Source: Sphaerochaeta sp. (GTDB lineage: Bacteria; Spirochaetota; Spirochaetia; Sphaerochaetales; Sphaerochaetaceae). Taken from it: a stretch of 12,941 bases of DNA. A program made the position numbers and the translations under genes. The number at the start of each line of letters is the position of its first letter. Positions within the stretch are counted from its first letter, which is position 1. Positions 1-12,441 of the stretch are shown piece by piece. The stretch covers positions 1 through 12,941 of the forward strand of contig DMOO01000120.1 of the NCBI GenBank assembly GCA_003456855.1. The letters are read 5' to 3'. Under the pieces are notes generated by a model, which was not told where the DNA came from, did no database searches, and was given only the letters and a program-made list of their open reading frames with translations.

Positions 1-858
1 CGCTGCATTTTTTTGCTCGCAGTCGTGGAGTTCCGCAAGGGAGAGCATGACAGCAGCACACGGCGTTCCTGTGGTAATCAGCAAGGTGATCTTGAAGGTG
101 CTGTCGAACCAAGGCATGAAGTACACAATCGCATAGGCAAGAAGAGGGAAGGCTATCAGCTTCAGTGCACTGCCAAGATAGGCAATCGGCTGGCCGAAGA
201 CATCCTTGAGATCCATTGATGCAAGCCTTACTCCAAGCACGAACATGCATATAGGCGCGGACATTTCTCTCAGGGTCAACATGATGCTCTGGATTCCGCT
301 TGGGAGCTTGATTCTTAGTAGATAAAGTGGAATAGCGACCATCACAGCCAGTATTGTTGGATTTATGAAGGCTCTTTTGATGGTGATGTATTTCCGGTCA
401 CGGGAGATCATGAACTCCCCGATTGTGAATATCAGAAGGTTCATGCTTGTGGCGAACATCATGCTGTAGCAGGCTACTATTGGCTGATCAGGAAACAAGG
501 CCTCTACAAGTGGACGTCCAAAGAAGCCTACGTTTCCCATGAAGGACCCGATTGTAAGGATTCTGAATTTGCCTTCCTCCAGTCTTTTGCCAAGTATCAG
601 AACCATTGCTCCATACATGATCAGCTGAACAGCCAGGCTGGCAAGGAAGAACAGAAGTAACTTCTTTCCAACCTCAGGAGTGAAGCACATGGTCTGGAAG
701 GAGCTTATTATCATTCCAGGTGTCGCACAGTAGACAAGGAAGGCAGACAAGGTCCTGCTGTGCTCGACCTTTGCAAGCTTCGCCTTTGCCATGGCATAGC
801 CCATGGCCATGAAGGCCATCATTGACAATACGCATCCAAGAACAATAGTGAATCCCAT
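1..858 (-). CDS. AEC (auxin efflux carrier)-family permease, C-terminus off the left edge
   Basis: The minus strand is open from an ATG at 858 to the window edge, giving 286 codons with no stop. The protein begins MGFTIVLGCVLSMMAFMAMGY and is a run of hydrophobic segments separated by short charged loops (for example KAKLAKVEHSR, GKRLEEGKFR, MISRDRKY). It contains TPGMIISSF, GNVGFFGRPLVEALFP and TTGTPCAAVMLSLAE, the pattern of AEC/PIN-like carriers with two five-helix bundles and a Gly/Pro crossover. Family members are usually about 300-320 residues, so only the last helix end should be missing. Family members export or import organic acids such as malate, or amphipathic compounds; the substrate here cannot be read. 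The start is firmly placed because an in-frame TAA lies four codons upstream. No Shine-Dalgarno sequence is present, so a leaderless mRNA is likely. It is divergent from the cupin gene. Confidence 0.85.
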   Translation of the reverse strand, partial: MGFTIVLGCVLSMMAFMAMGYAMAKAKLAKVEHSRTLSAFLVYCATPGMIISSFQTMCFTPEVGKKLLLFFLASLAVQLIMYGAMVLILGKRLEEGKFRILTIGSFMGNVGFFGRPLVEALFPDQPIVACYSMMFATSMNLLIFTIGEFMISRDRKYITIKRAFINPTILAVMVAIPLYLLRIKLPSGIQSIMLTLREMSAPICMFVLGVRLASMDLKDVFGQPIAYLGSALKLIAFPLLAYAIVYFMPWFDSTFKITLLITTGTPCAAVMLSLAELHDCEQKNAA

Positions 859-864
859 ATGGAG

Positions 865-893
865 AAATTAAATCATGTAAGTTTTCTTGTAAA
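865..893 (-). promoter_or_regulatory. Candidate promoter giving a leaderless mRNA for the AEC permease
   Basis: On the minus strand, TTTACA (893-888) is followed after 17 nt by TAATTT (870-865), and then by six bases before the ATG at 858. Transcription would start at or next to the A of the ATG. The -35 box matches five of six consensus bases and the -10 box only three of six. The same geometry occurs at nfeD, which supports the reading. The cupin promoter must lie in the same 80-nt gap on the other strand; a TAGAAT box at 899-904 is a possible -10 for it, without a convincing -35. Confidence 0.4.
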
Positions 894-938
894 TAGTGTA
901 GAATGACGAAAAGAAAACTTTCACCCGGGAGAGGAAAC

Positions 939-1286
939 ATGGTAATTCAGAACAAGGATATGGCAATAGAGGATGTCGTGAACATGAGAGGCGGCGATGG
1001 AGTTGTCATCAAGCAGACGATCGCACCTGCAGAGCCAAGCGTACACGTCAGGCTTTTCGCGAAGTTCACAATCAGAAAGGGCTGCAGCATTGGAAAGCAC
1101 CAGCACCTTGGAGAGGTCGAGTACTATTACATCCTCTCTGGAGAGGGAATCGTCACAGAGAATGAGGGTGAAAAGCTCGTAGGACCTGGTGATGTCGTCA
1201 TCACCGGTTGGGGACAGAGCCACTCGATCAGAAACGAGAAGGACGAGGACCTTGTCTTTGTTGCCGTGATCCCTACAGAGAAATAA
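939..1286 (+). CDS. Small single-domain cupin protein
   Basis: This is a 115-residue cytosolic protein with a complete cupin fold signature. Motif 1 is GCSIGKHQHLGEVEYYYIL, with two His and the Glu as metal ligands. Motif 2 is GPGDVVITGWGQSHSIRN, with the third His. The N-terminal NMRGGDGVV segment is typical of stand-alone cupins in gut anaerobes. Members of this group are often annotated as mannose-6-phosphate isomerase-like or sugar-binding cupins, but no reaction is established, so none is assigned. ATG 939 is chosen over the in-frame ATG at 903 because GGGAGAGGA sits just before it, and because the 12 extra residues are not cupin-like. It is followed by a strong intrinsic terminator and faces the PHP phosphatase gene. 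Confidence 0.88.
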   Translation: MVIQNKDMAIEDVVNMRGGDGVVIKQTIAPAEPSVHVRLFAKFTIRKGCSIGKHQHLGEVEYYYILSGEGIVTENEGEKLVGPGDVVITGWGQSHSIRNEKDEDLVFVAVIPTEK

Positions 1287-1306
1287 GAGTTAAGAAGTTT
1301 AAACGC

Positions 1307-1341
1307 AGGCTTCAGGCGTTCACAACCCTGAAGCCTTTTTT
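1307..1341 (+). terminator. Intrinsic terminator of the cupin gene, overlapping the end of the convergent phosphatase gene
   Basis: A perfect 10-bp stem, AGGCTTCAGG (1307-1316) with CCTGAAGCCT (1327-1336), encloses a 10-nt loop and runs into T1336-1341. The T-tract is on the plus strand, so it ends the cupin transcript. On the minus strand the hairpin is followed by GCGTTTAAACTTCTT, a poorer tract, so termination of the phosphatase transcript here is less certain. The downstream arm and T-tract lie inside the last codons of the phosphatase gene. Confidence 0.85.
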
Positions 1342-2127
1342 CTTGAGAGTGTCGACAGCCTCGTCGAAGAGCTTGCGGTCCATCCTCTCAGGCATGTGTG
1401 CATCGAAGCCGACGAACACGTCAATGTCATAGTCCATGGCGATGTCCCAGAACTGTTCGCAGGGATATCCAAGTCCTTTGATCTTTCCGTCTATGCGCTT
1501 GTAGTAACCTGACACATTGTATTCCAAAGGCATCCTGTACTCCTGGGCAATGGAGCATATGTCCTTTGAGAGACTCTCGCAGTTGGCATCGAATTCAGGG
1601 TAGTTGCTGAAAGGAAGATCTGGATGAGCCATGTACATAAAGAGGCCTGTTTCGATGGCTTTACGTGAAGTTTCAACATAATACTTCATTTTTGGAACAT
1701 CGCATATGACTTTTCCGTAGTAGCCGTCAAACTCGGTCTGACCGGCGTAGTGGTTACCCAGGATGAGGTATTCGATACCGTTCTCCCTGACCATGTCCTG
1801 AAGCCAGTTGAAGTACTGGAAGAAGGGTTCGACCTCAAGTCCGAGATGGACATCGATCTTGTCCGCGAACTGGTCACGCAAGGAGTTGATGGAGGAGACG
1901 TAATCACCCAGTTCACCCTCAAGCATCCTGATGTTTCCCTTTGTCTTGAATGGCTCCTTGAATGGGGTGTGGTCTGAAAAGCCCAGAACGGAGAAACCTC
2001 CCTCAATTGCCTTTGTGACGTAGTCAATGTCCTTCCCCTTGGCGTGGCGGCATCTGTATGTATGCGTATGGTATGTGGCCAGACCCTTCCCGAGCCCCGG
2101 TGCCTTTGCTGCGTATGACTTCTCCAT
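1312..2127 (-). CDS. PHP-domain phosphatase, HisJ/histidinol-phosphatase type
   Basis: This is a 271-residue protein with the metal-binding set of the PHP (polymerase and histidinol phosphatase) family. Visible motifs are YHTHTYRCRH at 19-28, FSDHTP at 50-55, GLEVEP at 96-101, LGNHY at 123-127, MAHPD at 166-170 and FDAHMP at 241-246. The length fits monofunctional HisJ enzymes (about 260-280 residues), which hydrolyse L-histidinol phosphate in histidine synthesis. No other his gene is near, and many PHP paralogues act on other phosphoesters, so the substrate is open. The PHP core begins only at residue 17. The N-terminal MEKSYAAKAPGLGKG extension is unusual, and no Shine-Dalgarno sequence precedes the ATG, but a -10-like box at the leaderless distance supports this start. 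It is convergent with the cupin and divergent from the flavin reductase. Confidence 0.85.
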   Translation of the reverse strand: MEKSYAAKAPGLGKGLATYHTHTYRCRHAKGKDIDYVTKAIEGGFSVLGFSDHTPFKEPFKTKGNIRMLEGELGDYVSSINSLRDQFADKIDVHLGLEVEPFFQYFNWLQDMVRENGIEYLILGNHYAGQTEFDGYYGKVICDVPKMKYYVETSRKAIETGLFMYMAHPDLPFSNYPEFDANCESLSKDICSIAQEYRMPLEYNVSGYYKRIDGKIKGLGYPCEQFWDIAMDYDIDVFVGFDAHMPERMDRKLFDEAVDTLKKKGFRVVNA

Positions 2128-2134
2128 GTCTTGG

Positions 2135-2163
2135 AGATTAACACAAACAGGTTGATTTGACCA
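2135..2163 (-). promoter_or_regulatory. Candidate promoter for a (near-)leaderless phosphatase mRNA
   Basis: On the minus strand, TGGTCA (2163-2158) and a TG-extended -10 box TGTTAATCT (2143-2135) are 17 nt apart. The -10 box ends 7 nt before the ATG. The expected transcript start is therefore zero or one base upstream of the start codon, which explains the missing Shine-Dalgarno sequence. Both boxes are imperfect. Confidence 0.35.
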
Positions 2164-2194
2164 TCAGGTCTTTGTTTCCGATACGGCTTTCCTG

Positions 2195-2203
2195 TGCTAT
2201 CTT
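2195..2203 (+). promoter_or_regulatory. Candidate extended -10 element for the flavin reductase gene
   Basis: TGCTATCTT fits the TGnTATnnT extended -10 form and lies 28 nt before the start codon, leaving a leader of roughly 20 nt that holds the Shine-Dalgarno sequence. No good -35 is at 17 nt. A TTGACC at 2157-2162 is an alternative -35 but pairs only with a weak GATACG. The gap is shared with the divergent phosphatase promoter. Confidence 0.3.
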
Positions 2204-2231
2204 TAAGGCATCAAAAACATCGGAGGATTCC

Positions 2232-2795
2232 ATGAGAAAGGATTTCGGAGCAAAACCATATTCATATCCGCAGGCGGTGTACATCGTCTCTACATACAAT
2301 GAGGACGGAAGTGCTAATGCAATGAACGCAGCCTGGGGTGGAGTGAGCAACGACCATGAGTTCACGCTGTGCCTGAGCGCAAACCACAAGACAGTGAAGA
2401 ATCTTCAGAGAACCAACGCCTTCACCGTCAGCATGGGAGATGCGAAGCATGTCGTGGAGTGCGACTATCTTGGACTTGCTACAGGAAACAAGAAGGCTGA
2501 CAAGCTTCAGAAGGCCGGTTTCACCGTTTCAAAGAGCGATTATGTCAATGCACCTGTCATAAATGAGCTTGCAGTCTGCGTGGAGTGCAACGTGATAAGC
2601 TATGACCCAAGCACCTGTGTGCTGGTGGGTGACATCGTCAACGTTTCAGTTGATGAGAGCGCAATGACTGATGGAAAAGTGGATGTCTCGAAGGTTCAGC
2701 CTATAGTCTTCGACCCATTCAACAACGATTACCTCAAGATCGGGGAGAAGGTCGGCGATGCCTTCAATGATGGCACCGCATTGATGAAGGACTGA
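2232..2795 (+). CDS. Flavin reductase-like, flavoredoxin-type FMN protein
   Basis: This is a 187-residue protein of the flavin-reductase-like, FMN-binding split-barrel family (flavoredoxin/RutF-related). Supporting segments are the N-terminal PYSYPQAVYIVSTYNEDGSANAMNAAWG, read as strand then the FMN-contacting NAMNAAW turn; CLSANHKTVKN around residues 53-63, where this family contacts the FMN phosphate; and the C-terminal VLVGDIVNVSVDE strand. In anaerobes such proteins pass electrons from NAD(P)H or ferredoxin partners to small acceptors; no partner gene is adjacent. The start is at ATG 2232 because GGAGG at 2222-2226 precedes it by 5 nt and the protein aligns from there. A longer TTG-initiated reading upstream is not needed. 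It stands alone between its own promoter region and its own terminator. Confidence 0.87.
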   Translation: MRKDFGAKPYSYPQAVYIVSTYNEDGSANAMNAAWGGVSNDHEFTLCLSANHKTVKNLQRTNAFTVSMGDAKHVVECDYLGLATGNKKADKLQKAGFTVSKSDYVNAPVINELAVCVECNVISYDPSTCVLVGDIVNVSVDESAMTDGKVDVSKVQPIVFDPFNNDYLKIGEKVGDAFNDGTALMKD

Positions 2796-2822
2796 TTCAA
2801 GTGCTATTTTCTTTGAGTATAA

Positions 2823-2858
2823 GGCTATGGTTTATCAAACCATGGCCCTTCTTTTTAT
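2823..2858 (+). terminator. Intrinsic terminator of the flavin reductase gene
   Basis: GGCTATGGTTT (2823-2833) pairs with AAACCATGGCC (2837-2847) around a tight ATC loop, with one G-U wobble among 11 pairs. It is followed by CTTCTTTTTAT, which carries the T-tract. Confidence 0.85.
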
Positions 2859-2859
2859 C

Positions 2860-2888
2860 TTGCCTTAGATTGAACCTCAATGTATCAT
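2860..2888 (+). promoter_or_regulatory. Promoter of the exported barrel-like protein gene
   Basis: TTGCCT (2860-2865) and TATCAT (2883-2888) are exactly 17 nt apart, matching four and five of six consensus bases. It begins immediately after the preceding terminator. The expected start point near 2895 leaves a short leader carrying a GGTGAGG ribosome site. Confidence 0.6.
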
Positions 2889-2917
2889 TTCTTGAAACCC
2901 AAGGGTGAGGTGTTTCT

Positions 2918-3604
2918 ATGAAGAGGTTTTTGATTGCATTGTTGCTTGTTGTATTGGTTATCCCATGTGTCTTTGCAGATGAGACTTCCAAGTCCGAGAT
3001 CAACTGGGATATCATTGATTCCGTTGGCGTAAACGCTGCATTGGACCATATCTCCATGAGGGGCAAGTTCAACACCTCTGGTGTTGTCACAAACAAGATG
3101 ACAGGCTTTGGAGTAGGTCTTCTGGTTGAAGCTGATCTCTCCGAGATCCCACATTTCCTGAAACCGGGCTGGTATGGATACTTTGACCTTGGGTTAGCAT
3201 TCTCGAAGAAGATAATGTTCGCCGACAATGAATACACCAACGAGACTGTAGACAGCATCCTAGGAATAAAAAGCCATCTCTGTGTCATGAAGGCTCTGGA
3301 TCTAAAGCTTCCGTTCGAGGTGCGTGTGGGTGGTGGATTCGCCTTCAACAGAATATCAGCCACAAGTGACACCAACCTGAGGATGAATGCCAGGGCCTTC
3401 GGCATTGCAGTGGTTGGAGAGGGGCTTCTCAAGATCGGAGACCACTTTGGAATCTCTCTGGTTGCCAATGCGGACATGAGCCTTGCAACCAAGATATACA
3501 GTCGTGAGAAGTCTGGCAGCGGCCTTGTCACAATCCAGAAGAGAAGTTCATTTGGTCTTGGCCTTGATGTTGCTGTAAGGCTTGGAGCCAAGTACATAAT
3601 CTGA
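2918..3604 (+). CDS. Exported, probably outer-membrane beta-barrel-like protein of unknown function
   Basis: This is a 228-residue protein. MKRFLIALLLVVLVIPCVFA is a clear Sec signal peptide with likely signal peptidase I cleavage after VFA and before DET (about residue 20/21). A Cys sits at 17, but the residue before it is Pro, so it is not a good lipoprotein site. The mature part alternates hydrophobic and polar or glycine residues in strands such as FGVGLLVEADL, YGYFDLGLAFSKK, FEVRVGGGFAFN, FGISLVANADMSL and FGLGLDVAVRLGAKYII, as in small outer-membrane barrels of spirochaetes. The terminal residue is Ile rather than the usual aromatic of the BAM signal, so barrel assembly is an inference. 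The gene has its own promoter. No hairpin terminator separates it from fakA, so some read-through into the fatty-acid run is possible. Confidence 0.7.
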   Translation: MKRFLIALLLVVLVIPCVFADETSKSEINWDIIDSVGVNAALDHISMRGKFNTSGVVTNKMTGFGVGLLVEADLSEIPHFLKPGWYGYFDLGLAFSKKIMFADNEYTNETVDSILGIKSHLCVMKALDLKLPFEVRVGGGFAFNRISATSDTNLRMNARAFGIAVVGEGLLKIGDHFGISLVANADMSLATKIYSREKSGSGLVTIQKRSSFGLGLDVAVRLGAKYII

Positions 3605-3627
3605 TTCCGACAGTTTTGTAAAATATG

Positions 3628-3656
3628 TTGATTTCCTCAATATGATTTGTTATTCT
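3628..3656 (+). promoter_or_regulatory. Candidate promoter of the fatty-acid kinase run
   Basis: TTGATT (3628-3633) and TATTCT (3651-3656) are 17 nt apart, each matching four of six consensus bases, and lie 43 nt before the fakA start. An alternative pairing, TTGTAA at 3615-3620 with TATGAT at 3641-3646, has a better -10 but a spacing of 20 nt. The region is strongly AT-rich. No operator palindrome is evident. Confidence 0.4.
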
Positions 3657-3698
3657 CCTATTTGAACCTAAGGATACAGTATTTATTTAGGAGTTTTT

Positions 3699-5333
3699 AT
3701 GGAAACCAAAAGGCTTGACGGACGCACTTTTGTCCGCATGCTTGCAGGTGGAGCAGGCAACATAGGTGCACACAGCACTGAGATAGACGAGTTGAACGTC
3801 TTTCCTGTTCCAGATGGTGATACAGGCAGCAACATGACCAGCACCATGGCAAAGGGAGCCGGCAATTTCTCGAAACTTTCAGACGCTCCATCCCTCAATG
3901 ATGTAGCCCATAGATTCGCTTCGGGTACGGTTCTAGGTGCAAGAGGCAATTCCGGCGTCATCCTTTCCCAGATCTTCATGGGAATTGACATGGGCCTCGT
4001 CACTTGCAAGGATGCCTCGGCACTTGAGCTTGCAAAGGCATACCAGCAGGGGGTCAAGAGATCCTATGCCGCAGTGGCGAATCCTACAGAGGGCACTATT
4101 CTGACTGTTTTCAGAGAGGCCACTGAGTATGCTGCCTCCAAGGTCACCGAGGATTCAAGCGTGGAGGATTTCTACCGATACCACATAGAGCAGGCCAAGG
4201 AGACCCTTTCCAGAACAAAGGAGATGCTTCCTGTTCTGGCAGAGGCCGATGTCATAGACAGCGGAGGAGCAGGCTATGTGGCGATAGCCGAGGGCATGTA
4301 CCGTGCCCTTGTGGATGATGATTATGTACCTGAGAAGGTGGAACCTGTCAAATACGGGGTCAAGGACATAGACCTTGATGCCTTCACAAGGGACAGTGTC
4401 CTTGAGTTCGGCTACTGTACAGAGCTTCTCATCAGATTGCAGACCAGCAAGGTCGATATTGAGAGCTTTGACACCAAGGTGATCCTTGATTTCCTTGAGA
4501 GCCACGGAGGGGACTCCATCGTGTGCTTCAAGGAGGGGGATGTGGTGAAGCTCCATGTCCACACCGTGAATCCTGGCGAAGTCCTTACCGAGTGCCGCAA
4601 GTACGGCGAATACCTTGCAGTGAAGATCGAGAACATGTCACTTCAGCATGACGAGATTCTGGTCAAGCAGAAGAGAAGGCATCTTGCCGTCATAGCAATG
4701 GCACCTGGCGATGGCATTGCAGAGACCTTCAAGGGCCTTGGTGCCGATGCCACGGTTGGAGACAACCCCTCAACAGGAGACTTTGTCGAGGCCCTGCACA
4801 GCATACCCGCAGACAACTACATTCTCCTGCCGAATGACAAGAACGTCATAATGGCTGCAAACCAGGCAGCTCAGATGGTTGAGGGTTCCAAGGTCTATGT
4901 CGTACCAACCAGAACGGTGCAGGAGGGCCATGGAGTTCTGAGCATCCTGACTCCTGATGTCCCTGATGTAGAGGCTCTGGTGGAGGACCTGAAGGCCGAG
5001 GCGGAGAATATAACAAGCGCATCTGTGGCCCTTGCCACAAGGGATGCAGACATCTCTGGCCAGCATGTGCACAAGGGTGACTTCATTGCCTTGTTCAGCA
5101 AGGACAATATAGTTTCTGACGAGAAAGACAAGGTTCAGGCCCTCATTGATCTTCTTGGGGACATTGAGGGAATGGACAATATGGAGATAGGTACCATCTT
5201 CTGCGGCAAGGATGTCACAGAGGATGAGGAGAGAGATGCAAGGGAGGCCGTCGAAGCCAGATGGCCTGACCTTCAGGTTGAATTCATAAGAGGTGGTCAG
5301 GAAATCTACTGCTTCCTGGTCGGATTGGAGTGA
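3699..5333 (+). CDS. fakA: Fatty acid kinase catalytic subunit FakA (DAK2/YloV family)
   Basis: FakA phosphorylates a fatty acid held by a FakB protein, using ATP, to give acyl-phosphate for phospholipid synthesis. At 544 residues it matches the usual 540-560. The N-terminal DhaL/DAK2 nucleotide domain (about 1-205) carries VFPVPDGDTGSNM at 34-46, whose Asp residues bind magnesium-ATP, plus GARGNSG at 80-86 and DSGGAGY at 187-193. The middle FakA-type domain has FGYCTELL at 237-244 and LHVHT at 285-289, the Cys/His set of that domain. The C-terminal EDD/DegV-like domain begins near 328 and holds LLPNDKNVIMAANQAA at 376-391. AGGAG at 3689-3693 precedes the ATG by 5 nt. It is the first gene of a run with plsX and fakB, and the adjacency of all three makes the assignment strong. 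Confidence 0.93.
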   Translation: METKRLDGRTFVRMLAGGAGNIGAHSTEIDELNVFPVPDGDTGSNMTSTMAKGAGNFSKLSDAPSLNDVAHRFASGTVLGARGNSGVILSQIFMGIDMGLVTCKDASALELAKAYQQGVKRSYAAVANPTEGTILTVFREATEYAASKVTEDSSVEDFYRYHIEQAKETLSRTKEMLPVLAEADVIDSGGAGYVAIAEGMYRALVDDDYVPEKVEPVKYGVKDIDLDAFTRDSVLEFGYCTELLIRLQTSKVDIESFDTKVILDFLESHGGDSIVCFKEGDVVKLHVHTVNPGEVLTECRKYGEYLAVKIENMSLQHDEILVKQKRRHLAVIAMAPGDGIAETFKGLGADATVGDNPSTGDFVEALHSIPADNYILLPNDKNVIMAANQAAQMVEGSKVYVVPTRTVQEGHGVLSILTPDVPDVEALVEDLKAEAENITSASVALATRDADISGQHVHKGDFIALFSKDNIVSDEKDKVQALIDLLGDIEGMDNMEIGTIFCGKDVTEDEERDAREAVEARWPDLQVEFIRGGQEIYCFLVGLE

Positions 5334-5336
5334 TAT

Positions 5337-6326
5337 ATGGACAACAACAGAATAATGATTGCAGTCGATACACAGGGCAGCGACAAGGGCCCTGCGACAA
5401 TAGTCAAGGGTGCCTGCCAGGCACTTCAGGACAACGGTAATCTGATTGTCTGCCTGGTCGGTGACCAGACAGTCATAGATGAGGCTCTCAAGGGGAACAA
5501 CGCCCCTATGGACAGAGTCAGGATAATCCATGCCCCCGACACGATCACGAACTACGACCATCCAGTCCAGGCCCTTCAGAGGAAGCCTGATTCATCATTG
5601 GTCAAGGCTCTTGCCGAGCTAAGAGACGATCCATCATGTGCAGGACTCATCAATGCGGGCAGCACAGGCGCCCTCCTGGTGGGTTCCATGATGTACCTCT
5701 CAAAGCCGGGTGAAAGGGTCAGACCCGCCTTGGCTGCCATCCTTCCTTCCGAGAACGGTGGATTCACCGCAGTTGTCGATACAGGCGCGAACATAGACTG
5801 CATGCCTTCGATGCTGGTCCAGTTCGCCCACCAGGGCACACAGCTCATGAAGGACATGTACAAGATCGAGTCCCCAAGAGTCGGCCTTCTGTCAAATGGA
5901 GCGGAGGAGTCCAAGGGCAACAAGCTGGTCAAGGAGACCCATGAGATGCTCAAGAAAGAGGAGGGGATCAACTTCGTCGGCAACATTGAGGGAACAAATG
6001 CCCTTTCAGGTGACTGCGATGTTCTGGTCTGTGATGGCTTTGCAGGAAACATGGTTCTGAAGACATCCGAGGGAATGGCCAGACGCCTGATCAAGGACAT
6101 AGTCAAATACGCAAAGAAGAGCGGGAAGATGGAGTACATGGAGGTTGTCAATCACCTGATGGCCGTCTATGACTTCAATTCCCTTGGCGGTGCAATCGTA
6201 CTTGGTGTCTCGAAGCCTGTCATCAAGGCCCATGGAGCGGCCAATGAGGCTTCAATCCGCAACACCATCAAAATGCTTATGAACATGGCGGAGAACAAGA
6301 AGGTCTTCGTCAGAGAGGATAATTAA
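5337..6326 (+). CDS. plsX: Phosphate acyltransferase PlsX
   Basis: PlsX interconverts acyl-ACP and acyl-phosphate, the donor for PlsY in the first acylation of glycerol-3-phosphate; it is a peripheral membrane enzyme. At 329 residues it is of family length. Recognisable blocks are INAGSTGALLVG at 105-116, RPALAAILP at 129-137, VVDTGANIDCMP at 146-157, VGLLSNGAEESKGN at 182-195, FVGNIEGTNAL at 213-223 and CDGFAGNMVLKTSEG at 232-246. The first block is divergent: VDTQGSDKGP (10-19) replaces the usual DAMGGD-x-x-P, and GSTGALL replaces GNTGALL. The start is 3 nt after the fakA stop, with GGAG of that gene's end as ribosome site, so translation is likely coupled. plsX is usually found with rpmF, fab genes and acpP. 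Here it is tied to the fatty-acid kinase instead. Confidence 0.93.
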   Translation: MDNNRIMIAVDTQGSDKGPATIVKGACQALQDNGNLIVCLVGDQTVIDEALKGNNAPMDRVRIIHAPDTITNYDHPVQALQRKPDSSLVKALAELRDDPSCAGLINAGSTGALLVGSMMYLSKPGERVRPALAAILPSENGGFTAVVDTGANIDCMPSMLVQFAHQGTQLMKDMYKIESPRVGLLSNGAEESKGNKLVKETHEMLKKEEGINFVGNIEGTNALSGDCDVLVCDGFAGNMVLKTSEGMARRLIKDIVKYAKKSGKMEYMEVVNHLMAVYDFNSLGGAIVLGVSKPVIKAHGAANEASIRNTIKMLMNMAENKKVFVREDN

Positions 6327-6338
6327 AGGAACTTAAAG

Positions 6339-7238
6339 ATGTCTAAGCGCTTTGTCATGTGCACATCAACCGGATGCATCGAGTATGCGCCGGAGAGATA
6401 CCGTGAACTCGGTATAGGAATCATTAGAATCCACGTTCTCTTCCAGGGCAAGGAGTATCTTGAAGGTCTGGATCTGGACCCTGTGGATTTCTATCAGCAG
6501 CTGGAGAAGCTGGAGAATCCGAAGGACCACCTTCCGAAGACTGCCATGCCTACCACCGAAGCCATAAGGAAGGCTTTCGATGATGCCTATGCAGCTGGCT
6601 ATGATGAGGGTATTGTGATTGTCCTCAGCTCCTACCTGGGTGGCACCTACAACCTGATCCGTCTGGTTGCAGAGGACTATAAGGACAAGATGAACATCCA
6701 TGTCATCGACTCGAAGATCACATGTTTCGGTGAAGGTCTTCTGGCCGTAAAGGCTGCAGAGATGATCAAGAATGATGTCCCGACAGAGACGATTCTCAAA
6801 GAAATCAACTGGATGATAAAGAGACAGGAGTTCCTTGGCATCGATGCCAAACTTGACTACCTGATCTATAACGGCCGTCTGAAGGGTGGTAAGGCCTTCA
6901 TGGGAAAGATGCTCAGCATCTGCCCTGTGGTCCACTTCACACATGAGGGTGAGCTGACATCCCTGACCACTGTAAGGACTCCGAAGAAGGCCCTCGCAAA
7001 GACCTGTGAGATCCTCAAGGACATAATCGGAGACAGGAAGAGCGAGGACTACATCCTGTTCCACATCTACACCGGACCTTCCATCCTTCCTCAGCTTGAG
7101 GAGATAGAGAAGGGATACGGGATCCAGTGCAACCACGAGGCTGTGATAATGTCTCCGGTGAGCGGCTGCCACAATGGTCCATGGCTTGCCGCCTACGGTT
7201 ATCTTCCTCTGAGAAGAGCCGACGAACCGTTGGATTGA
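6339..7238 (+). CDS. fakB: DegV/EDD-family fatty-acid-binding protein (FakB)
   Basis: FakB binds a free fatty acid, screens it from water and presents its carboxylate to FakA. The 299-residue protein has the two-domain DegV fold. N-terminal CTSTGCIEY at 8-16 corresponds to the usual DSTADL block. FQGKEYLEGLDLDPVDFY at 35-52 is the family's gate segment. PTTEAIRKAF follows at 71-80, LSSYLGGTYN at 96-105 holds the carboxylate-contacting serine block, and the C-terminal SGCHNGP (His 278) corresponds to the family GTHxGPG loop. The N-terminal and C-terminal signature blocks are both non-canonical, so the lipid could be unusual. AAAGGAAC precedes the ATG, 12 nt after plsX. Placement beside fakA and plsX supports FakB rather than an orphan DegV protein. 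The acyl specificity cannot be read. Confidence 0.87.
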   Translation: MSKRFVMCTSTGCIEYAPERYRELGIGIIRIHVLFQGKEYLEGLDLDPVDFYQQLEKLENPKDHLPKTAMPTTEAIRKAFDDAYAAGYDEGIVIVLSSYLGGTYNLIRLVAEDYKDKMNIHVIDSKITCFGEGLLAVKAAEMIKNDVPTETILKEINWMIKRQEFLGIDAKLDYLIYNGRLKGGKAFMGKMLSICPVVHFTHEGELTSLTTVRTPKKALAKTCEILKDIIGDRKSEDYILFHIYTGPSILPQLEEIEKGYGIQCNHEAVIMSPVSGCHNGPWLAAYGYLPLRRADEPLD

Positions 7239-7248
7239 GGAGGTTCCC

Positions 7249-8373
7249 ATGGTCGAGATAATCAAGGTTGAGAACCAGAGACAGAGAAAGGAGTTCGTCA
7301 ACTTCCCGCTCAGGCTCTACAAGGGGAATCCATACTATGCACCAGGGCTCTATGGCGATGAGATGAAGGTCTTCACCGACAAGAACGTCTACCATGACAC
7401 CTGTGACGATGTATTCTTCCTTGCCAGAAAAGACGGAAAGACCGTCGGACGCATCCAGGGGATAATCCAGAAGCAGTTCAACGAGCTCCACAAGGAGAGC
7501 CGTGTACGTTTCACAAGATTCCACTGCATAGACGATCAGGAGGTCGCCACAGCCCTCTTCAAGGCCGTCGAGGACTGGGCAAAGGCCCAGGGCATGAACA
7601 AGTTCTGCGGACCACTTGGATACAGCGACCTGGAGAGAGAGGGACTTCTCATAAGCGGATTCGAGGAGCTTTCCACCTTCGAGGAGGAGTACAACTACCC
7701 GTACTACCAGAAGCTTGTCGAGGGAGCAGGGTTCGAGAAGGAGGTCGACTGGGTGGAGTTCCAGCTCCGTGCCCCGAAGACCCCTAATCCCATGATCCCG
7801 AAGGTTGCGAAGCGCGCCCTTGAGCTGAACCATCTCCATGTGGTTGACCCGAGCACGATGAGCAAGAGGGAGTACATCAGCAGGTACAAGGACGGAGTCT
7901 TCGACTGCATAGACGAGTGCTACGCCAAGCTCTACGGCACTGTGCCTTTCACTGAGAAGATGAAGAAGCAGCTGATTGACCAGTTCCTGATGATCGTCAA
8001 CAAGAACTACCTCGTCATCGTCTGTGATGACAACGACAAGGTCCAGTCCTTCGGGCTCTGCTTCCCGTCAATCTCCAAGGCTCTGCAGAAGAGCGGCGGA
8101 AGACTTACACCTCCTGCGCTTCTGAGGCTGATGAAGGCCATCAAGGATCCTAGGATCATTGACCTGGGCCTTGTTGCAGTCATGCCTGAACTGCAGGCAA
8201 GGGGCGTCAATGCTGTCATGATAGAGTCCATGATCAAGATGCTCAACTCATCAAATGTGGAATACTGCGAGACGAACCTCAATCTCGAGGACAATCTTGC
8301 AGTCCAGTCCATGTGGAAGTATCTTGACGCAAAGAACCATAAGAGAAGAAGATCATTCATAAAGACCATCTGA
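7249..8373 (+). CDS. GNAT-superfamily acyltransferase, YghO-like, unassigned substrate
   Basis: This 374-residue protein belongs to a conserved but uncharacterised GNAT group resembling E. coli YghO. The N-terminal part has FPLRLYKGNPYYAP at 19-32, VGRIQGIIQ at 67-75 and GPLGYSDLEREG at 121-132, followed by NYPYYQKLVEGAGF at 149-162. The C-terminal part has a classical acyl-CoA-binding motif A, LGLVAVMPELQARGVNA at 306-322, so two GNAT-like halves are likely. No signal peptide or membrane segment is seen. The ribosome site GAGGAGG overlaps the fakB stop codon, so the gene is translationally coupled inside the fatty-acid run. An ACP gene follows 12 nt downstream. From this context I infer that it transfers a long acyl chain from acyl-ACP or acyl-CoA to an amine or hydroxyl acceptor. 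An ordinary acetyltransferase role cannot be excluded. Confidence 0.75.
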   Translation: MVEIIKVENQRQRKEFVNFPLRLYKGNPYYAPGLYGDEMKVFTDKNVYHDTCDDVFFLARKDGKTVGRIQGIIQKQFNELHKESRVRFTRFHCIDDQEVATALFKAVEDWAKAQGMNKFCGPLGYSDLEREGLLISGFEELSTFEEEYNYPYYQKLVEGAGFEKEVDWVEFQLRAPKTPNPMIPKVAKRALELNHLHVVDPSTMSKREYISRYKDGVFDCIDECYAKLYGTVPFTEKMKKQLIDQFLMIVNKNYLVIVCDDNDKVQSFGLCFPSISKALQKSGGRLTPPALLRLMKAIKDPRIIDLGLVAVMPELQARGVNAVMIESMIKMLNSSNVEYCETNLNLEDNLAVQSMWKYLDAKNHKRRRSFIKTI

Positions 8374-8385
8374 GGAGGTAACAAC

Positions 8386-8619
8386 ATGATCATAGATAAA
8401 CTTAAGGAAATCCTTCACAAGGTTTCACCAGACTACGACGTTTCAACCGTCACCGAGAACACCAACCTGCGCGAGGACCTTGGAATGGACTCACTTGCCA
8501 TGATGCTTGTCTCCATGGAGGTCGAGGATGCTTTCAACTTCCATTTCGACGAGCCTGTGGACTTCAAGACCGTGGGAGATGTCATAACCTTCCTCAAAGG
8601 CCGTGGAATCGAAGGCTGA
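8386..8619 (+). CDS. Acyl carrier protein
   Basis: This is a 77-residue acidic protein of the ACP family. The phosphopantetheine attachment motif GMDSLA places the modified serine at residue 36. Helix I (IIDKLKEILHKV), the loop TENTNLREDLG and helix II/III (MMLVSMEVEDAFNFHFDEP) fit the four-helix fold. Residues after DSL are hydrophobic (AMMLV) rather than the acidic DTVEL of FASII AcpP, so it may be a specialised carrier. A strong AGGAGGT overlaps the stop of the GNAT gene. It closes the fakA-plsX-fakB-GNAT run and is followed by a hairpin. It could accept acyl chains from PlsX running in reverse. Whether it also serves general fatty-acid synthesis cannot be judged, as no fab gene is in view. 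The symbol acpP is therefore not given. Confidence 0.9.
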   Translation: MIIDKLKEILHKVSPDYDVSTVTENTNLREDLGMDSLAMMLVSMEVEDAFNFHFDEPVDFKTVGDVITFLKGRGIEG

Positions 8620-8642
8620 GAAGAAACATTGCACAAGTTCAC

Positions 8643-8671
8643 TTGACCCCTCGCTTGAGGGGTCTTATATT
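8643..8671 (+). promoter_or_regulatory. Promoter of nfeD, superimposed on the upstream terminator hairpin
   Basis: TTGACC (8643-8648) and TATATT (8666-8671) are exactly 17 nt apart and match five of six consensus bases each. The perfect hairpin of the preceding terminator (8645-8664) fills the -35 end and the whole spacer. Six bases separate the -10 from ATG 8678, so transcription should start at the A of the start codon. Confidence 0.6.
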
Positions 8672-8674
8672 TTA
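8645..8674 (+). terminator. Hairpin terminator of the fatty-acid run
   Basis: GACCCCTC (8645-8652) pairs perfectly with GAGGGGTC (8657-8664) around a GCTT tetraloop, followed by TTATATTTTA. It lies 25 nt after the ACP stop. The T-tract is interrupted by As, so termination may be incomplete. The same palindrome could also act as a protein-binding site, because it sits between the -35 and -10 boxes of nfeD. Confidence 0.7.
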
Positions 8675-8677
8675 GGT

Positions 8678-9130
8678 ATGGGAAACATCATTTCAATCAT
8701 GCCATGGATTTGGCTTGGGCTTTTTGTGGTTCTCGTCATAATCGAGGCTGCAACTCAGGGACTCACCACCATATGGGGTGCAATCAGCGCCTTGGTGATG
8801 GTTGGACTATCTTTTGTGGATGGCTTTTCAATCGGTTGGCAGATACTGACCTTCCTTGTCCTTACATTCGTTCTCCTGGTGACAACGCGTCCTGTCTTGA
8901 TGAAGAAGTTCAAGATCGGCAAGTATGCGACGAACGTCGACTTCCTGCTTGGTCAGGAGGTGGTCGTGGTGAAGACCATAGAGAAGTTCCAGAAGGGTGA
9001 GGCCAAGTCCAAGAACGGCGTCATCTGGGCAGCCACCTCGGAGGATGGGTCCAGGATAGAAACAGACTCTGTCTGCGAGGTCGCAGGTGTTGATGGGAAC
9101 ACCCTCAGACTCAGAGTCATCGAGAAATAA
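8678..9130 (+). CDS. nfeD: NfeD-family membrane protein (short form, OB-fold)
   Basis: This is a 150-residue protein with three hydrophobic segments (about 9-26, 31-49 and 52-70). After RPVLMKKF comes a soluble C-terminal half of about 75 residues (GQEVVVVKTIEKF to NTLRLRVIEK), the NfeD OB-fold. Short NfeD proteins partner with SPFH/stomatin proteins in the membrane, and such a gene follows 26 nt downstream. ATG 8678 is chosen because the protein begins with the first membrane segment, and because the promoter places the transcript start on this ATG. No Shine-Dalgarno sequence lies at a proper distance. A second in-frame ATG at 8699 (MPWIW) is possible but also lacks a ribosome site. An upstream GTG at 8603 would read through the terminator hairpin and is rejected. 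Confidence 0.85.
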   Translation: MGNIISIMPWIWLGLFVVLVIIEAATQGLTTIWGAISALVMVGLSFVDGFSIGWQILTFLVLTFVLLVTTRPVLMKKFKIGKYATNVDFLLGQEVVVVKTIEKFQKGEAKSKNGVIWAATSEDGSRIETDSVCEVAGVDGNTLRLRVIEK

Positions 9131-9156
9131 GTGAAATACAGGGAAGGGGAGTAATT

Positions 9157-10074
9157 ATGCTTTACATTTTCATTGCACTTCTAATTGTGATTCTTCTGAT
9201 AATCGTAGCGAATGTCAGAATCGTGCCGCAGTCACAGGCCTTCGTAATCGAGCGCCTTGGTGCCTATGCAACGACCTGGAACACCGGTCTCCACGTGAAG
9301 ATACCTTTCATTGACAGGATTGCCAAGAAGGTCTCCCTGAAGGAGAAGGTAATGGACTTCGTGCCTCAGCCTGTCATCACTAAGGATAACGTCACCATGA
9401 TGATCGACACGGTCGTCTACTTCCAGATCACCGACCCTAAGCTCAATGCCTATGGAGTCGAGAACCCGATCAGCGCACTCGAGAACCTCTCGGCCACAAC
9501 CCTGAGAAACATCATAGGTGAGCTTGAGCTGGACCAGACCCTTACAAGCCGTGACGTCATCAACAGCAAGATGAGAAGCATACTTGACGAGGCCACCGAT
9601 CCTTGGGGAATCAAGGTCAACCGTGTCGAGGTCAAGAACATCATGCCACCTGATGCAATCAAGGAGGCCATGGAGAAACAGATGCGTGCAGAGCGTGAGC
9701 GCCGTGAGTCGATCCTCATTGCCGAAGGTCAGAAGCAGAGTGCAATTCTGGTGGCCGAAGGAAAGAAGCAGTCCACGATTCTTGAGGCAGAAGCATCAAA
9801 GCAGGCCATGATTCTGAAGGCAGAGGCAGAGAAGGAAGCTGCAATCCAGAAGGCTCTTGGTGAGGCCAGGGCCATCCTTGAGGTCCAGAAGGCAAAGGCC
9901 GATGGTATCAAGATGATCCGTGAGGCAGAGGCCGATGACACCGTCATCAAGCTCCGCAGCCTTGAGGCTCTGGAGAAGGCCGCCGACGGTCAGGCGACCA
10001 AGATCATCATCCCGTCAGACCTGCAGAGCATGGCTGGTGTGGTCACATCAGTTGCCGAGATTGCCAAGAAGTAA
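9157..10074 (+). CDS. SPFH/Band 7 (stomatin-like, QmcA-type) membrane scaffold protein
   Basis: This 305-residue protein forms membrane scaffolds that organise lipid microdomains and partner proteases or NfeD. One N-terminal membrane segment spans residues 1-20. The SPFH domain runs from about 21 to 180, with VPQSQAFVIERLGAY at 23-37, GLHVKIPF at 44-51, VITKDNVTMMIDTVVYFQI at 73-91 and LRNIIGELELDQTLTSR at 116-132. From 184 to 260 there are seven consecutive 11-residue units built on I-L-x-A-E-x-x-K-Q, a hendecad coiled coil used for ring assembly in this family. The C-terminal KIIIPSDLQSMAGVV is typical of stomatin-like proteins. GGGGA at 9146-9150 precedes the ATG by 6 nt. It is transcribed with nfeD, and the pair is a well known bacterial arrangement. 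Confidence 0.92.
   Translation: MLYIFIALLIVILLIIVANVRIVPQSQAFVIERLGAYATTWNTGLHVKIPFIDRIAKKVSLKEKVMDFVPQPVITKDNVTMMIDTVVYFQITDPKLNAYGVENPISALENLSATTLRNIIGELELDQTLTSRDVINSKMRSILDEATDPWGIKVNRVEVKNIMPPDAIKEAMEKQMRAERERRESILIAEGQKQSAILVAEGKKQSTILEAEASKQAMILKAEAEKEAAIQKALGEARAILEVQKAKADGIKMIREAEADDTVIKLRSLEALEKAADGQATKIIIPSDLQSMAGVVTSVAEIAKK
9706..9936 (+). repeat. Seven imperfect 33-nt units encoding the hendecad coiled coil
   Basis: Seven in-frame 33-nt units encode ESILIAEGQKQ, SAILVAEGKKQ, STILEAEASKQ, AMILKAEAEKE, AAIQKALGEAR, AILEVQKAKAD and GIKMIREAEAD. The first four are clearly related; the last three are degenerate. The DNA units differ at many third positions, so the repeat is old and kept at protein level rather than a recent tandem expansion. 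Confidence 0.7.
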
Positions 10075-10096
10075 TACAGAGAAATCCGCAGACAAG

Positions 10097-10133
10097 GGCA
10101 TTGGAGACCAGATGGAATCCAATGCCTTTTTTT
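10097..10133 (+). terminator. Terminator of the nfeD-SPFH pair; first copy of a duplicated hairpin
   Basis: GGCATTGGA (10097-10105) pairs perfectly with TCCAATGCC (10118-10126) around a 12-nt loop, then seven T. The unit is repeated at 12384-12419 with only two adjacent differences over 36 nt (AG here, GA there), including the loop. Confidence 0.9.
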
Positions 10134-10135
10134 AT

Positions 10136-10163
10136 TTGACAGCAAGTTTGATAAAATTATAAT
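10136..10163 (+). promoter_or_regulatory. Perfect-consensus promoter of the large lipoprotein gene
   Basis: TTGACA (10136-10141) and TATAAT (10158-10163) are full housekeeping-sigma consensus boxes separated by 16 nt. The promoter starts right after the preceding terminator. The expected start point near 10170 leaves a leader of about 24 nt with AGGAG at 10183-10187. Confidence 0.8.
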
Positions 10164-10193
10164 ACTAGTTAGATCATTGTTTAGGAGATAGGA

Positions 10194-12362
10194 ATGAAGG
10201 GGAAATCTTTTGCTATCTTTCTGCTTTTTATGTCTTTTCTTTTGGCCTTCAGCTCATGCAGCAATGAAGTTACTATTGGGAGAGAAGGAACTCTAGTGGT
10301 TAATTTTGGAGGATCTGAATCGAGAGGAATCCTTCCAACCATATCTATGGTCACAGCAAGCTATACCATAACTATTAAAGATTCTGCAGGAACGAATGTC
10401 ATTGATCCTACAACTATTGGTTCGAATGCTACTTCTGCAACTTTTAGGCTTCCTGCTGGAAATTATACTGTCAATGTTGATGCTAAAAACACTGATGGTA
10501 CTGTTATAGGAGGTGGTTCGCAGAGTGTTTCTGTGACTGCTGGTGGAGAGAACTCTGTTACAGTCAATATCTCTGAGTGTGAAGGTGATGGAGTATTTGC
10601 AATTTCTATACAGGCCAACAGCGGTTATTCACTTAAGCTCAACATATATAACAATCTAAACGAGGTCAAGTACTCAAAGGATCTGATATACAGTGAGGGG
10701 TCCTACATTACAGATAGTACAGTATCTCTTTCCAATGGATTTTATAGATTTGAGATTGTGAGAAGCGATACAGGAAAAGCAATAAAAAATGATTCCGTAA
10801 GAGTTGTGAAAGGGGTAACCTCTACTTATTCCGCGACCTTCACATTCGCTTCAGATGGAAGTGTCACTATTGTAAATGAAATGATAAATATTCCTGCAAT
10901 TGAAATCACCTTGCAAAAGGAGACTTTCAGTGTAACAGAAACACTAACAGCAACTGCATCTATTTCAGGTATTTCGGACTTTACCTCTTGTTGGTATATG
11001 GATGGAGTTGCGATAGGTTCCTATTCGGATTATTCGGATCTCAGTTACAGCCTTGAAAACTGTGAGGCCGGAGATCATGAGATTGCTCTGTTTGTTAAGA
11101 ATAGTCAGGTCATGTGGTCCGAGTCTGTGTCCTTCTCTGTTGAGAATCAGGCTTTCTATATGCTTGGTTTTACCAATCTTACAACTGGAGATGGTTCAAG
11201 GGGAATGACCAAATTCCCAGATGGTGTGCCATTCCTTGAGATGGATACCGGCATTGAAGGGTATGGCCTTTGGCTTTCCTGTAATGCAATGAGCGCTCTT
11301 CCTGTAATTCCATCATTCAAAAAAGTTGTCTCGAATCCTGCAAATTACATCAAATCTGTACTTACAAACGACTTTTCAGGCTATGGTTTTCCTATGAAGA
11401 TAGTTAAATATAAAGTCAATCCTGATGGCCTATTCCTCCGCTATGTGTTGTATGAGGATGAGAAAACCATCGGCATGATAGACTATTACTACTCATGGCT
11501 TAACCAGACATTCTCCTACAGGGAAATTGTCACTCCTTTCCTTCAGAATACTTCAGAGCTTGGAGACAACATTCTTTATTTCCAAATGTACAATGTTCCT
11601 ATCTATGAAGATTTGGATGGAGTCCATTTTTCCGCGGGGTTGAATTCAGATGGTACTCTTAACAGTGATACCGATTTGCAATTGACTAAGGTCCAGTCTA
11701 ACGGCACTGGATGGGAATCATACGCAGATTACTCATTTAACATAAGGGTCTATGATCTTATCATGGATATGGATGGTGGCGAAGTAAATGCAACCGGATA
11801 TCATGGTAGTGACAGTTATGCAGATGTCTCTGATTATTCCGGAATGGAGACTTTCTTGCTGGACGAAGAAGTAATTGATAAGTATGAAGTAAGTTATAAT
11901 TCTGAAACAAAGAGGATTGTTGTCAATGATGACAAATGTAATCTTGACTATGCTTATGACATGCTGTCATTCCTTTGTAGTTCTTCGATTGATGATTATA
12001 AGGCTGCTGATGATATATGCTGCATAGAAGACTTTAATGACTTGAGACTGGAATTAAATTCGACATCTAGACAAAATGCCACTGACGACAACGACTTGTC
12101 TTTCTGTACAAAGTATGATTTTGACAAGAAAATAGCTGCAACGTTAGGTCCTGATAGGGAGCGCCTTACTTACTGCACAGAGGAATTTGGATTGGCTCTT
12201 TCAGATGCTCTAAAAAGCTTTTGCCTAGTATATCCTGAAATATATGGGTCAGAGGTAACAACATCTCGAGATTTTGCAAGGAAACACCTGATGGAATGTG
12301 GTCTCTCAGAATCAACAGTAAATGCGATGCTGGAGAATTATACATGGGTGGATGACAATTAA
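10194..12362 (+). CDS. Large secreted lipoprotein with beta-sandwich/PKD-like domains, unknown function
   Basis: This is a 722-residue protein. MKGKSFAIFLLFMSFLLAFSSC is a signal peptide with a relaxed lipobox (F-S-S-C), placing the lipidated Cys at 22, followed by SNEV. Residues about 31-127 form a first beta-sandwich (GTLVVNFGG to ENSVTVNIS), with a RLPAGNYTV strand pair. About 133-225 repeats that plan (FAISIQANSG to FYRFEIVRSD). About 235-317 looks PKD/Ig-like, with CWYMDGVAIGSY at 266-277 and CEAGDHEIALFV at 290-301. The remaining 400 residues are not recognised; they are rich in Asp, Tyr and Ser and hold many Cys, unusual for an exported protein. AGGAG precedes the ATG by 6 nt. Codon use is clearly more AT-rich than in all neighbours. 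A surface binding or adhesive role is possible but unproven. No catalytic motif is seen. Confidence 0.75.
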   Translation: MKGKSFAIFLLFMSFLLAFSSCSNEVTIGREGTLVVNFGGSESRGILPTISMVTASYTITIKDSAGTNVIDPTTIGSNATSATFRLPAGNYTVNVDAKNTDGTVIGGGSQSVSVTAGGENSVTVNISECEGDGVFAISIQANSGYSLKLNIYNNLNEVKYSKDLIYSEGSYITDSTVSLSNGFYRFEIVRSDTGKAIKNDSVRVVKGVTSTYSATFTFASDGSVTIVNEMINIPAIEITLQKETFSVTETLTATASISGISDFTSCWYMDGVAIGSYSDYSDLSYSLENCEAGDHEIALFVKNSQVMWSESVSFSVENQAFYMLGFTNLTTGDGSRGMTKFPDGVPFLEMDTGIEGYGLWLSCNAMSALPVIPSFKKVVSNPANYIKSVLTNDFSGYGFPMKIVKYKVNPDGLFLRYVLYEDEKTIGMIDYYYSWLNQTFSYREIVTPFLQNTSELGDNILYFQMYNVPIYEDLDGVHFSAGLNSDGTLNSDTDLQLTKVQSNGTGWESYADYSFNIRVYDLIMDMDGGEVNATGYHGSDSYADVSDYSGMETFLLDEEVIDKYEVSYNSETKRIVVNDDKCNLDYAYDMLSFLCSSSIDDYKAADDICCIEDFNDLRLELNSTSRQNATDDNDLSFCTKYDFDKKIAATLGPDRERLTYCTEEFGLALSDALKSFCLVYPEIYGSEVTTSRDFARKHLMECGLSESTVNAMLENYTWVDDN

Positions 12363-12383
12363 TTGACTGATACATAATAAAAA

Positions 12384-12419
12384 GGCATTGGAGACCGAAT
12401 GGAATCCAATGCCTTTTTT
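12384..12419 (+). terminator. Terminator of the lipoprotein gene; second copy of the duplicated hairpin
   Basis: GGCATTGGA (12384-12392) pairs with TCCAATGCC (12405-12413) around a 12-nt loop, followed by six T. It is 34/36 identical to the terminator at 10097-10132. The insertion sequence begins two bases after its T-tract. Confidence 0.9.
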
Positions 12420-12421
12420 CT

Positions 12422-12441
12422 GGCTCTTCACGTTTTCTTCG
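12422..12441. repeat. Terminal inverted repeat end of the ISL3-type element (one copy visible)
   Basis: The sequence starting GGCTCTTC at 12422 has the conserved tip of ISL3-family ends. The inner limit is not known, because the partner repeat is outside the window; about 20 nt is marked as a guess. Confidence 0.5.

Follow-up and report, generated by a model that had tools for sequence, protein, structure and literature searches.

Scavenged fatty acids enter bacterial lipid metabolism through enzyme families whose chemistry is established: in excerpts of two accounts, FakAB yields acyl-phosphate, and PlsX interconverts acyl-phosphate and acyl-acyl carrier protein (acyl-ACP) (PMC10146087, PMC9136124). 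A distinct group of acyltransferases with GNAT domains has been connected with sphingolipids. In the excerpted text of PMC9386255, yghO (ECD_02850) and Caulobacter CC_1154 both appear under the name aca, the acyl-CoA N-acyltransferase for dihydroceramide; for yghO, this label rests on homology, and ECD_02850 is described there as a possible N-acyltransferase. The Caulobacter acyltransferase bCerS is characterized, in the portion of PMC11087976 consulted, as a cytoplasmic peripheral membrane protein. Here, we analyze a 12,941-nucleotide stretch of Sphaerochaeta sp. DNA (contig DMOO01000120.1, positions 1 to 12,941; hereafter, the window) in which genes of both kinds are combined: fakA, plsX, fakB, a gene for a YghO-like GNAT protein and an acyl carrier protein gene (acp) follow one another in a single run.

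The individual parts of this run are known, and we regard it as a variant of known parts; no publication on the run, or on its tie to hosts without ketoacyl-synthase, was found among the titles listed in searches of open-licence literature. Our reading, to which we give about an even chance, is that the run is one salvage line feeding an N-acylation of the YghO/bCerS-superfamily type, with ceramide as the probable product in the spirochaete lineage of the window and with another, or an imported, acceptor in those Clostridia that lack serine palmitoyltransferase (SPT).

A conserved five-gene run

The run at positions 3699-8619 is real. The preliminary description of this DNA had claimed a five-gene run with gaps of 3-12 nt and a terminal hairpin, and the open reading frames, the family assignments and the hairpin bear this out:

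3699-5333, + strand: fakA, FakA-type fatty-acid kinase catalytic subunit, 544 aa (Dak2, FakA-like_M, FakA-like_C; TIGR03599)
5337-6326, + strand: plsX, PlsX acyl-ACP:phosphate acyltransferase, 329 aa (PF02504, 278 bits; TIGR00182)
6339-7238, + strand: fakB, FakB-type fatty-acid-binding protein of the DegV family, 299 aa (PF02645, 180 bits; TIGR00762)
7249-8373, + strand: GNAT, tandem-GNAT acyltransferase of the YghO/bCerS superfamily, 374 aa, predicted N-acyltransferase (PF00583; YghO homology)
8386-8619, + strand: acp, acyl carrier protein, 77 aa, GMDSL motif with Ser36 (PF00550)
8645-8664, + strand: terminator-like hairpin downstream of acp (8-bp stem, 6 G-C pairs, T-rich tail)

All five genes lie on the + strand, with successive gaps of 3, 12, 10 and 12 nt. 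All three Pfam domains of FakA pass their cut-offs, and the protein scores 480 bits with TIGR03599 (cut-off 396) and stays under the cut-off of the strict equivalog NF038248 (387 bits vs 975). PlsX belongs to the TIGR00182 equivalog (280.7 bits vs 243.4). FakB, which shares the run with FakA, reaches 194 bits with TIGR00762 (cut-off 99.7) and is under the cut-off of the FakB1 equivalog NF038249 (103 bits vs 350). For the GNAT protein, Pfam gives a generic GNAT domain only (PF00583, 24.6 bits vs 20.7). The ACP retains the serine of the DSL motif and matches PF00550 (33 bits vs 20.8), with a score under the cut-off of the acyl_carrier model TIGR00517 (36 bits vs 70). Taken alone, the hairpin is weak: the stretch scanned contains 8 similar sites, and shuffled sequences gave 5.0 on average.

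A contig scan with a 20-row GNAT alignment confirmed 222 places, and the 80 best were taken for analysis; these loci (L numbers; G numbers denote genomes) are the closest relatives of the window GNAT and do not constitute a random sample. The order FakA-PlsX-FakB-GNAT-ACP on one strand was found in 44 of the 80, in metagenome-assembled genomes (MAGs) of Spirochaetales and Clostridia. Forty-three of these were recognized by script and one, L032, after the order was rechecked, a weak extra FakB match having broken its string. Five more loci (L001, L002, L033, L037 and L061) fit the run and are cut by contig ends. Because the order recurs to this extent, and because 152 of the 176 gaps in the complete runs are shorter than 50 nt (measured between tblastn match ends), the five-gene run goes beyond chance. 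The neighbourhood is thus a conserved unit that is not confined to one strain.

The remaining loci comprise six with FakA/FakB-GNAT and neither PlsX nor ACP, two without PlsX, one without FakB, five with a second arrangement, FakB-GNAT-PlsX-ACP (L050, L059, L060, L063 and L077), in which FakB is only 22-24% identical to that of the window, and 17 in which the GNAT gene has no adjoining Fak genes. Altogether, GNAT is Fak-linked in 63 of the 80 loci, and in 62 of these 63 a FakB-family gene, checked for family membership, precedes it within the run.

The nearest loci come from ruminant MAGs of Spirochaetales, the best being L001, from roe deer rumen, with 90% GNAT identity; the window is therefore probably rumen spirochaete DNA. 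In genomes drawn evenly from larger groups, a GNAT of at least 500 bits is rare: 4 of 341 in the class of G008 and 2 of 296 in Spirochaetota, counts that include the centre genomes G008 and G003, which belong to these samples by construction. The GNAT clade therefore spans two phyla and yet is a minority in each. The layout, earlier called unusual, is frequent within one clade of gut Clostridia and Spirochaetales, although evenly drawn samples of either group show it in a minority only. No viral-contig match was obtained for the window GNAT.

Several observations concern individual loci. The GNAT frames of L001 (3925-5046) and L077 contain an in-frame stop, which may reflect assembly errors. 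In 10 Clostridia loci (L006-L014, L079), fakA is preceded at a distance of 16-31 nt, on its own strand, by a gene that by eye is TetR-like; here, the run may be six genes long, as if a ligand switched it. Of the 20 Clostridia loci with a histidine-kinase-like gene upstream of fakA, also named by eye (L018, L025, L053 and others), 16 have it no more than 1 kb away, and in 12 of 16 its response regulator lies within about 2 kb. No recurrent acceptor pathway emerged among the neighbours of the Clostridia runs, which by eye were TetR-like, two-component pair, RuvC-like and apparently housekeeping genes.

Relationships of the GNAT protein

The GNAT protein had been called YghO-like, a designation that holds: it aligns with E. 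coli YghO over its full length (1-374) at 27% identity and 128 bits, and a separate comparison gave 26.5%. In an alignment of 118 rows, divided into the window-plus-locus rows and the others, 15 core residues reach an identity of 95% or more in each set (F16, A59, R68, L103, G115, G121, P122, G161, K164, D167, G284, E347, N349, K365 and R368). Judged by this full-length homology and shared core, the window GNAT is a member of the YghO/bCerS superfamily and a predicted N-acyltransferase. A midpoint-rooted tree with SH-aLRT support was built by a quick method from 95 of the 118 rows, after the five-gene set had been thinned to 26. The window GNAT falls within one starred clade of 57 rows, namely 26 five-gene, 14 other Fak-linked and 17 GNAT-alone; this clade is nested in a starred branch together with sequences from Bacteroides and Spirochaetota that are about 40% identical. 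Because of their in-frame stop, the L001 and L077 proteins entered neither the alignment nor the tree.

The E. coli record L082 holds yghO together with SPT, ACP, an epimerase and a fatty acyl-AMP ligase, and its SPT scores over the NCBIfam cut-off of SerpalmtaseBetaP. Relatives in Streptomyces and Rubrobacter sit between a gene of the PLP-dependent class I/II aminotransferase type and a reductase, triplets that, going by annotation, we read as SPT-like/GNAT/CerR-like; in Sphingomonas, an ACP and a class I/II aminotransferase-type gene, the latter read by us, again from annotation, as SPT, are found 6 kb from the relative. The preliminary description had left the GNAT unassigned, but the closest relatives for which a role has been published are linked to ceramide.

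A protein search retrieved 5,994 relatives; for the 120 that were listed, the displayed names were only "GNAT superfamily N-acetyltransferase" or "hypothetical protein". Searching the PDB with the window GNAT sequence gave no match at E up to 1. The AlphaFold2 (AF2) model has a mean pLDDT of 80.5, and its best PDB matches are tandem-GNAT folds.

Lipid metabolism of the host genomes

A feature that the preliminary description had missed is that most host genomes have no ketoacyl-synthase. Among hosts with an A1 score of at least 439 bits or one of the 80 loci, PF02801 was detected in 5 of 77 (1/22 + 4/55), all five belonging to the 49 five-gene genomes (complete or cut). The domain is present in 13 of 20 GNAT-less Clostridia, taken from 279 as a control, and in 4 of 5 Clostridia with a GNAT of the 40% class. 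The difference between the 77 hosts and the 20 controls is significant (Fisher p = 9e-8), a value computed over related, non-independent MAGs whose completeness is not given. Given the missing ketoacyl-synthase, the GNAT hosts are probable fatty-acid auxotrophs.

PlsY is present in 16 of 22 genomes and absent in G002-G005, G015 and G020, and PlsC-family genes occur in all 22. No PlsY was found in four of the five five-gene spirochaete relatives (G002-G005), and the fifth, G001, has a partial PlsY at a contig end; PlsY-only use of acyl-phosphate is therefore unlikely in these spirochaetes. Each of G001-G005 has one PlsX (partial in G002), and each of G002-G005 has two ACP-like genes, the run's own and one other. 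Seven of the 12 five-gene Clostridia (G006-G017) carry two PlsX copies, so that there the PlsX of the run is an extra copy. These PlsY and PlsX patterns agree with the earlier suggestion that the run does not serve PlsY alone. We also considered GNAT as a replacement for PlsY or PlsC, an idea weakened by the same PlsC and PlsY counts.

Serine palmitoyltransferase-like genes in the host genomes

A first SPT query of 17 genomes detected an alpha-oxoamine synthase in G002, G003, G004 and G016. A second query covered 72 of the 80 locus genomes, that is, all except eight with GNAT-alone loci, and counted matches of at least 504 bits as strong. Any match was found in 18 of the 72 and a strong one in 11, including four of the six spirochaetes (G002, G003, G004 and G020). 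By arrangement, a strong gene is present in 7 of 49 five-gene genomes, 3 of 5 with FakB-GNAT-PlsX-ACP, 1 of 9 with GNAT alone and 0 of 9 others. For the proteins of L087, L088, L089 and L137, SerpalmtaseCFB is the best model (506-518 bits; non-SPT models at most 380), and the best PDB match of the L087 protein is the SPT structure 3a2b (398 bits vs 243 for KBL). The four proteins are nearer to SPT than to KBL, BioF or HemA; we call them SPT-like because their 506-518 bits remain under the curated cut-off of 640.

The two traits co-occur across Spirochaetota (n = 296). An SPT-like gene of at least 330 bits is present in 11 of the 14 genomes whose GNAT reaches at least 331 bits, against 34 of 282 others (p = 8e-8), and when GNAT of any score is set against strong SPT-like genes, 37 genomes have both and 207 neither (p = 4e-17). 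In both counts, thresholds were chosen after the lists had been seen, kinship is uncorrected, and G100, which has two SPT fragments, is counted as SPT-less. G002, G003, G004, G020 and G311 each show a single GNAT of the YghO-like family, which leaves no further family member as a candidate ceramide synthase there.

The SPT gene of L002 (4346-5539) follows FakB-GNAT-ACP-NfeD-SPFH, beginning 105 bases beyond the SPFH stop; because of this spacing and of a terminator-like sequence seen by eye between SPFH and SPT, it is probably a separate unit in the same locus. In G016, the SPT gene is located about 11 kb from the run on the opposite strand and is followed by a KdsR-like gene. A short-chain dehydrogenase for which 3-ketodihydrosphingosine reductase is the best NCBIfam model adjoins SPT in 3 of the 11 genomes (G016, G020 and G051); no KdsR-like gene was found beside SPT in the other eight, some of which have it near contig ends.

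Other genes around SPT can be noted. A gene for an AMP-binding acyl synthetase (L133, 11149-12879, - strand) is directly upstream of SPT in G003, and AasR-like tblastn matches occur near SPT in L002, L134 and L135. A MarR-like regulator, named by eye (L135, 7586-8017), lies directly ahead of the SPT and KdsR-like genes of G016, which suggests a regulated sphinganine unit.

Other features of the window

Directly after the run, an NfeD-like gene (start probably at 8678) is followed by an SPFH/band-7 gene (8678-10074 for the pair); the same pair occurs in L002, where SPT is the next gene. A 722-aa protein, lipoprotein-like by eye, is encoded at 10194-12362 in a low-GC stretch; it has no Pfam family over cut-off, and a perfect sigma-70 consensus lies ahead of its gene at 10136-10163. 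Near the window end (12431-12748, - strand) is the C-terminal part of an ISL3-family transposase (DDE_Tnp_ISL3, 69 bits).

Discussion

We infer a single line formed by the five genes, acyl-ACP as the substrate of the GNAT, an amide as its product and the identity of the acceptors. FakB would bind a scavenged fatty acid, which FakA would phosphorylate to acyl-phosphate, and PlsX, with the run-encoded ACP, would convert the acyl-phosphate to acyl-ACP. The same ACP would then carry the chain to the GNAT, which would N-acylate an amine. In spirochaetes with SPT, the acceptor would most likely be a sphingoid base made by the SPT encoded elsewhere, giving (dihydro)ceramide; in SPT-less Clostridia with the run, it would be another amine or an imported base. 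That salvage to acyl-ACP is joined here to an acyl-consuming enzyme had been proposed at the outset and agrees with our reading; an N-acyltransferase role is reported for the superfamily of this GNAT in the excerpted PMC9386255. The accompanying suggestion of a lipoamino acid fares less well, the nearest relatives with a published role pointing to ceramide.

Several results weigh against ceramide synthesis by this route. The YghO branch stands opposite the clade of the window GNAT in the midpoint-rooted tree, 27% identity to YghO allows a changed acceptor, and the AF2 model finds its best PDB matches mainly among acetyltransferases, which are uninformative on chain length. No SPT was found in G001, the closest relative (90% GNAT), or in G005, and the window contains none; a strong SPT-like gene was found in only 7 of 66 Bacillota (G016, G019, G031, G046, G051, G054 and G061) and in only 7 of 49 five-gene genomes. 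These two counts exclude ceramide as the general product, short of an import of bases; the notion of an SPT in every five-gene genome was rejected on the second of them. To this are added the shortfall of the SPT-like proteins of L087, L088, L089 and L137 from their curated cut-off and the scores of the KdsR-like proteins of G016, G020 and G051 (224, 204 and 230 bits vs a cut-off of 400). In 44 of the 296 Spirochaetota genomes a GNAT is present and a strong SPT-like gene is missing, and the reverse holds in 8. Finally, G016 and G019, which have SPT, also encode a second GNAT, and this one may be their ceramide synthase.

The absence of a strong SPT-like gene from 42 of the 49 five-gene genomes is also what a different acceptor would lead one to expect. 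The GNAT might N-acylate an amino acid, a biogenic amine or an aminophospholipid, yielding fatty acid amides or lipoamino acids, with SPT in the spirochaetes a coincidence; gut Clostridia such as Eubacterium rectale do produce N-acyl amines, according to excerpts of PMC10191378. We regard this as rather unlikely: the E. coli relative is accompanied by SPT and three other named relatives by SPT-like annotations, strong SPT-like genes occur in four of the six clade spirochaetes, 11 of 14 Spirochaetota with a high-scoring GNAT have an SPT-like gene, and we noticed no enzyme that would supply an amine in the neighbour families that recur, most neighbours being unscanned.

Hosts without ketoacyl-synthase need an entry point for fatty acids, and the run could simply provide it for phospholipid synthesis, supplying acyl-ACP to PlsC-type enzymes, with the GNAT acting as an O-acyltransferase on glycerol-3-phosphate or a lysolipid where PlsY is missing, as in G002-G005, G015 and G020. 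This seems improbable to us, since the known acyltransferases mostly remain (PlsC in 22/22 genomes, PlsY in 16/22) and the role published for the superfamily, in the excerpts of PMC9386255, is N-acylation. Very improbable, in our view, is an acetyltransferase merely travelling with salvage genes. The generic GNAT domain seen by Pfam, the acetyltransferases among the matches of the AF2 model and the 17 of 80 loci without adjoining Fak genes would fit it, but the Fak linkage in 63 of 80 loci, the tight spacing of the complete runs (152 of 176 gaps under 50 nt) and the recurrence of FakB-GNAT in the second arrangement, with PlsX-ACP downstream (L050, L059, L060, L063 and L077), argue against it.

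The salvage-fed N-acylation proposed here can be extended, tentatively and with less than an even chance, to an evolutionary scheme: gut and rumen bacteria that lost fatty-acid synthesis would make ceramide-type lipids from host or dietary fatty acid supplied through Fak and PlsX, a salvage-driven sphingolipid pathway in Spirochaetales and Clostridia, and a sister branch, in SPT-less Clostridia, would make another amide lipid. Gut-bacterial N-acyl amines and sphingolipids are described as host signals in excerpts of PMC10191378; if our reading is true, diet-derived fatty acids would therefore be linked directly to microbial signalling lipids. Bacteria seemingly without fatty-acid synthesis would devote a conserved five-gene run to amide lipids from scavenged fatty acids, and a large GNAT family, with the 5,994 relatives of the protein search, would acquire a function.

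Three described systems frame this proposal. The YghO/Aca/bCerS proteins (E. coli BL21 yghO and Caulobacter CC_1154, the latter of which we take to be the same gene as bCerS) share with the window GNAT the full-length homology to YghO and 15 residues, and they resemble it in the presence of SPT in several host genomes and of a nearby ACP, as in E. coli. They differ in that acyl supply there depends on an acyl-AMP ligase and here would depend on FakAB-PlsX; moreover, the window GNAT belongs to a separate, well-supported clade, and SPT lies outside the run, with none detected in the majority of Bacillota that have the run's GNAT. FakAB-PlsX salvage in Staphylococcus aureus and Enterococcus faecalis involves the same three enzymes and the same intermediates, acyl-phosphate and acyl-ACP (excerpts of PMC10146087), whereas here the run that encodes these enzymes also includes GNAT and ACP genes, and four of the five five-gene spirochaetes have no PlsY. 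The AcpR-AasR-SPT loci of Rhodobacteria, as far as the excerpts of PMC9386255 describe them, likewise tie a specialized ACP and a loading enzyme to sphingolipid genes; loading is carried out by AasR there and would be performed by FakAB and PlsX here, and SPT lies within the cluster there and elsewhere here.

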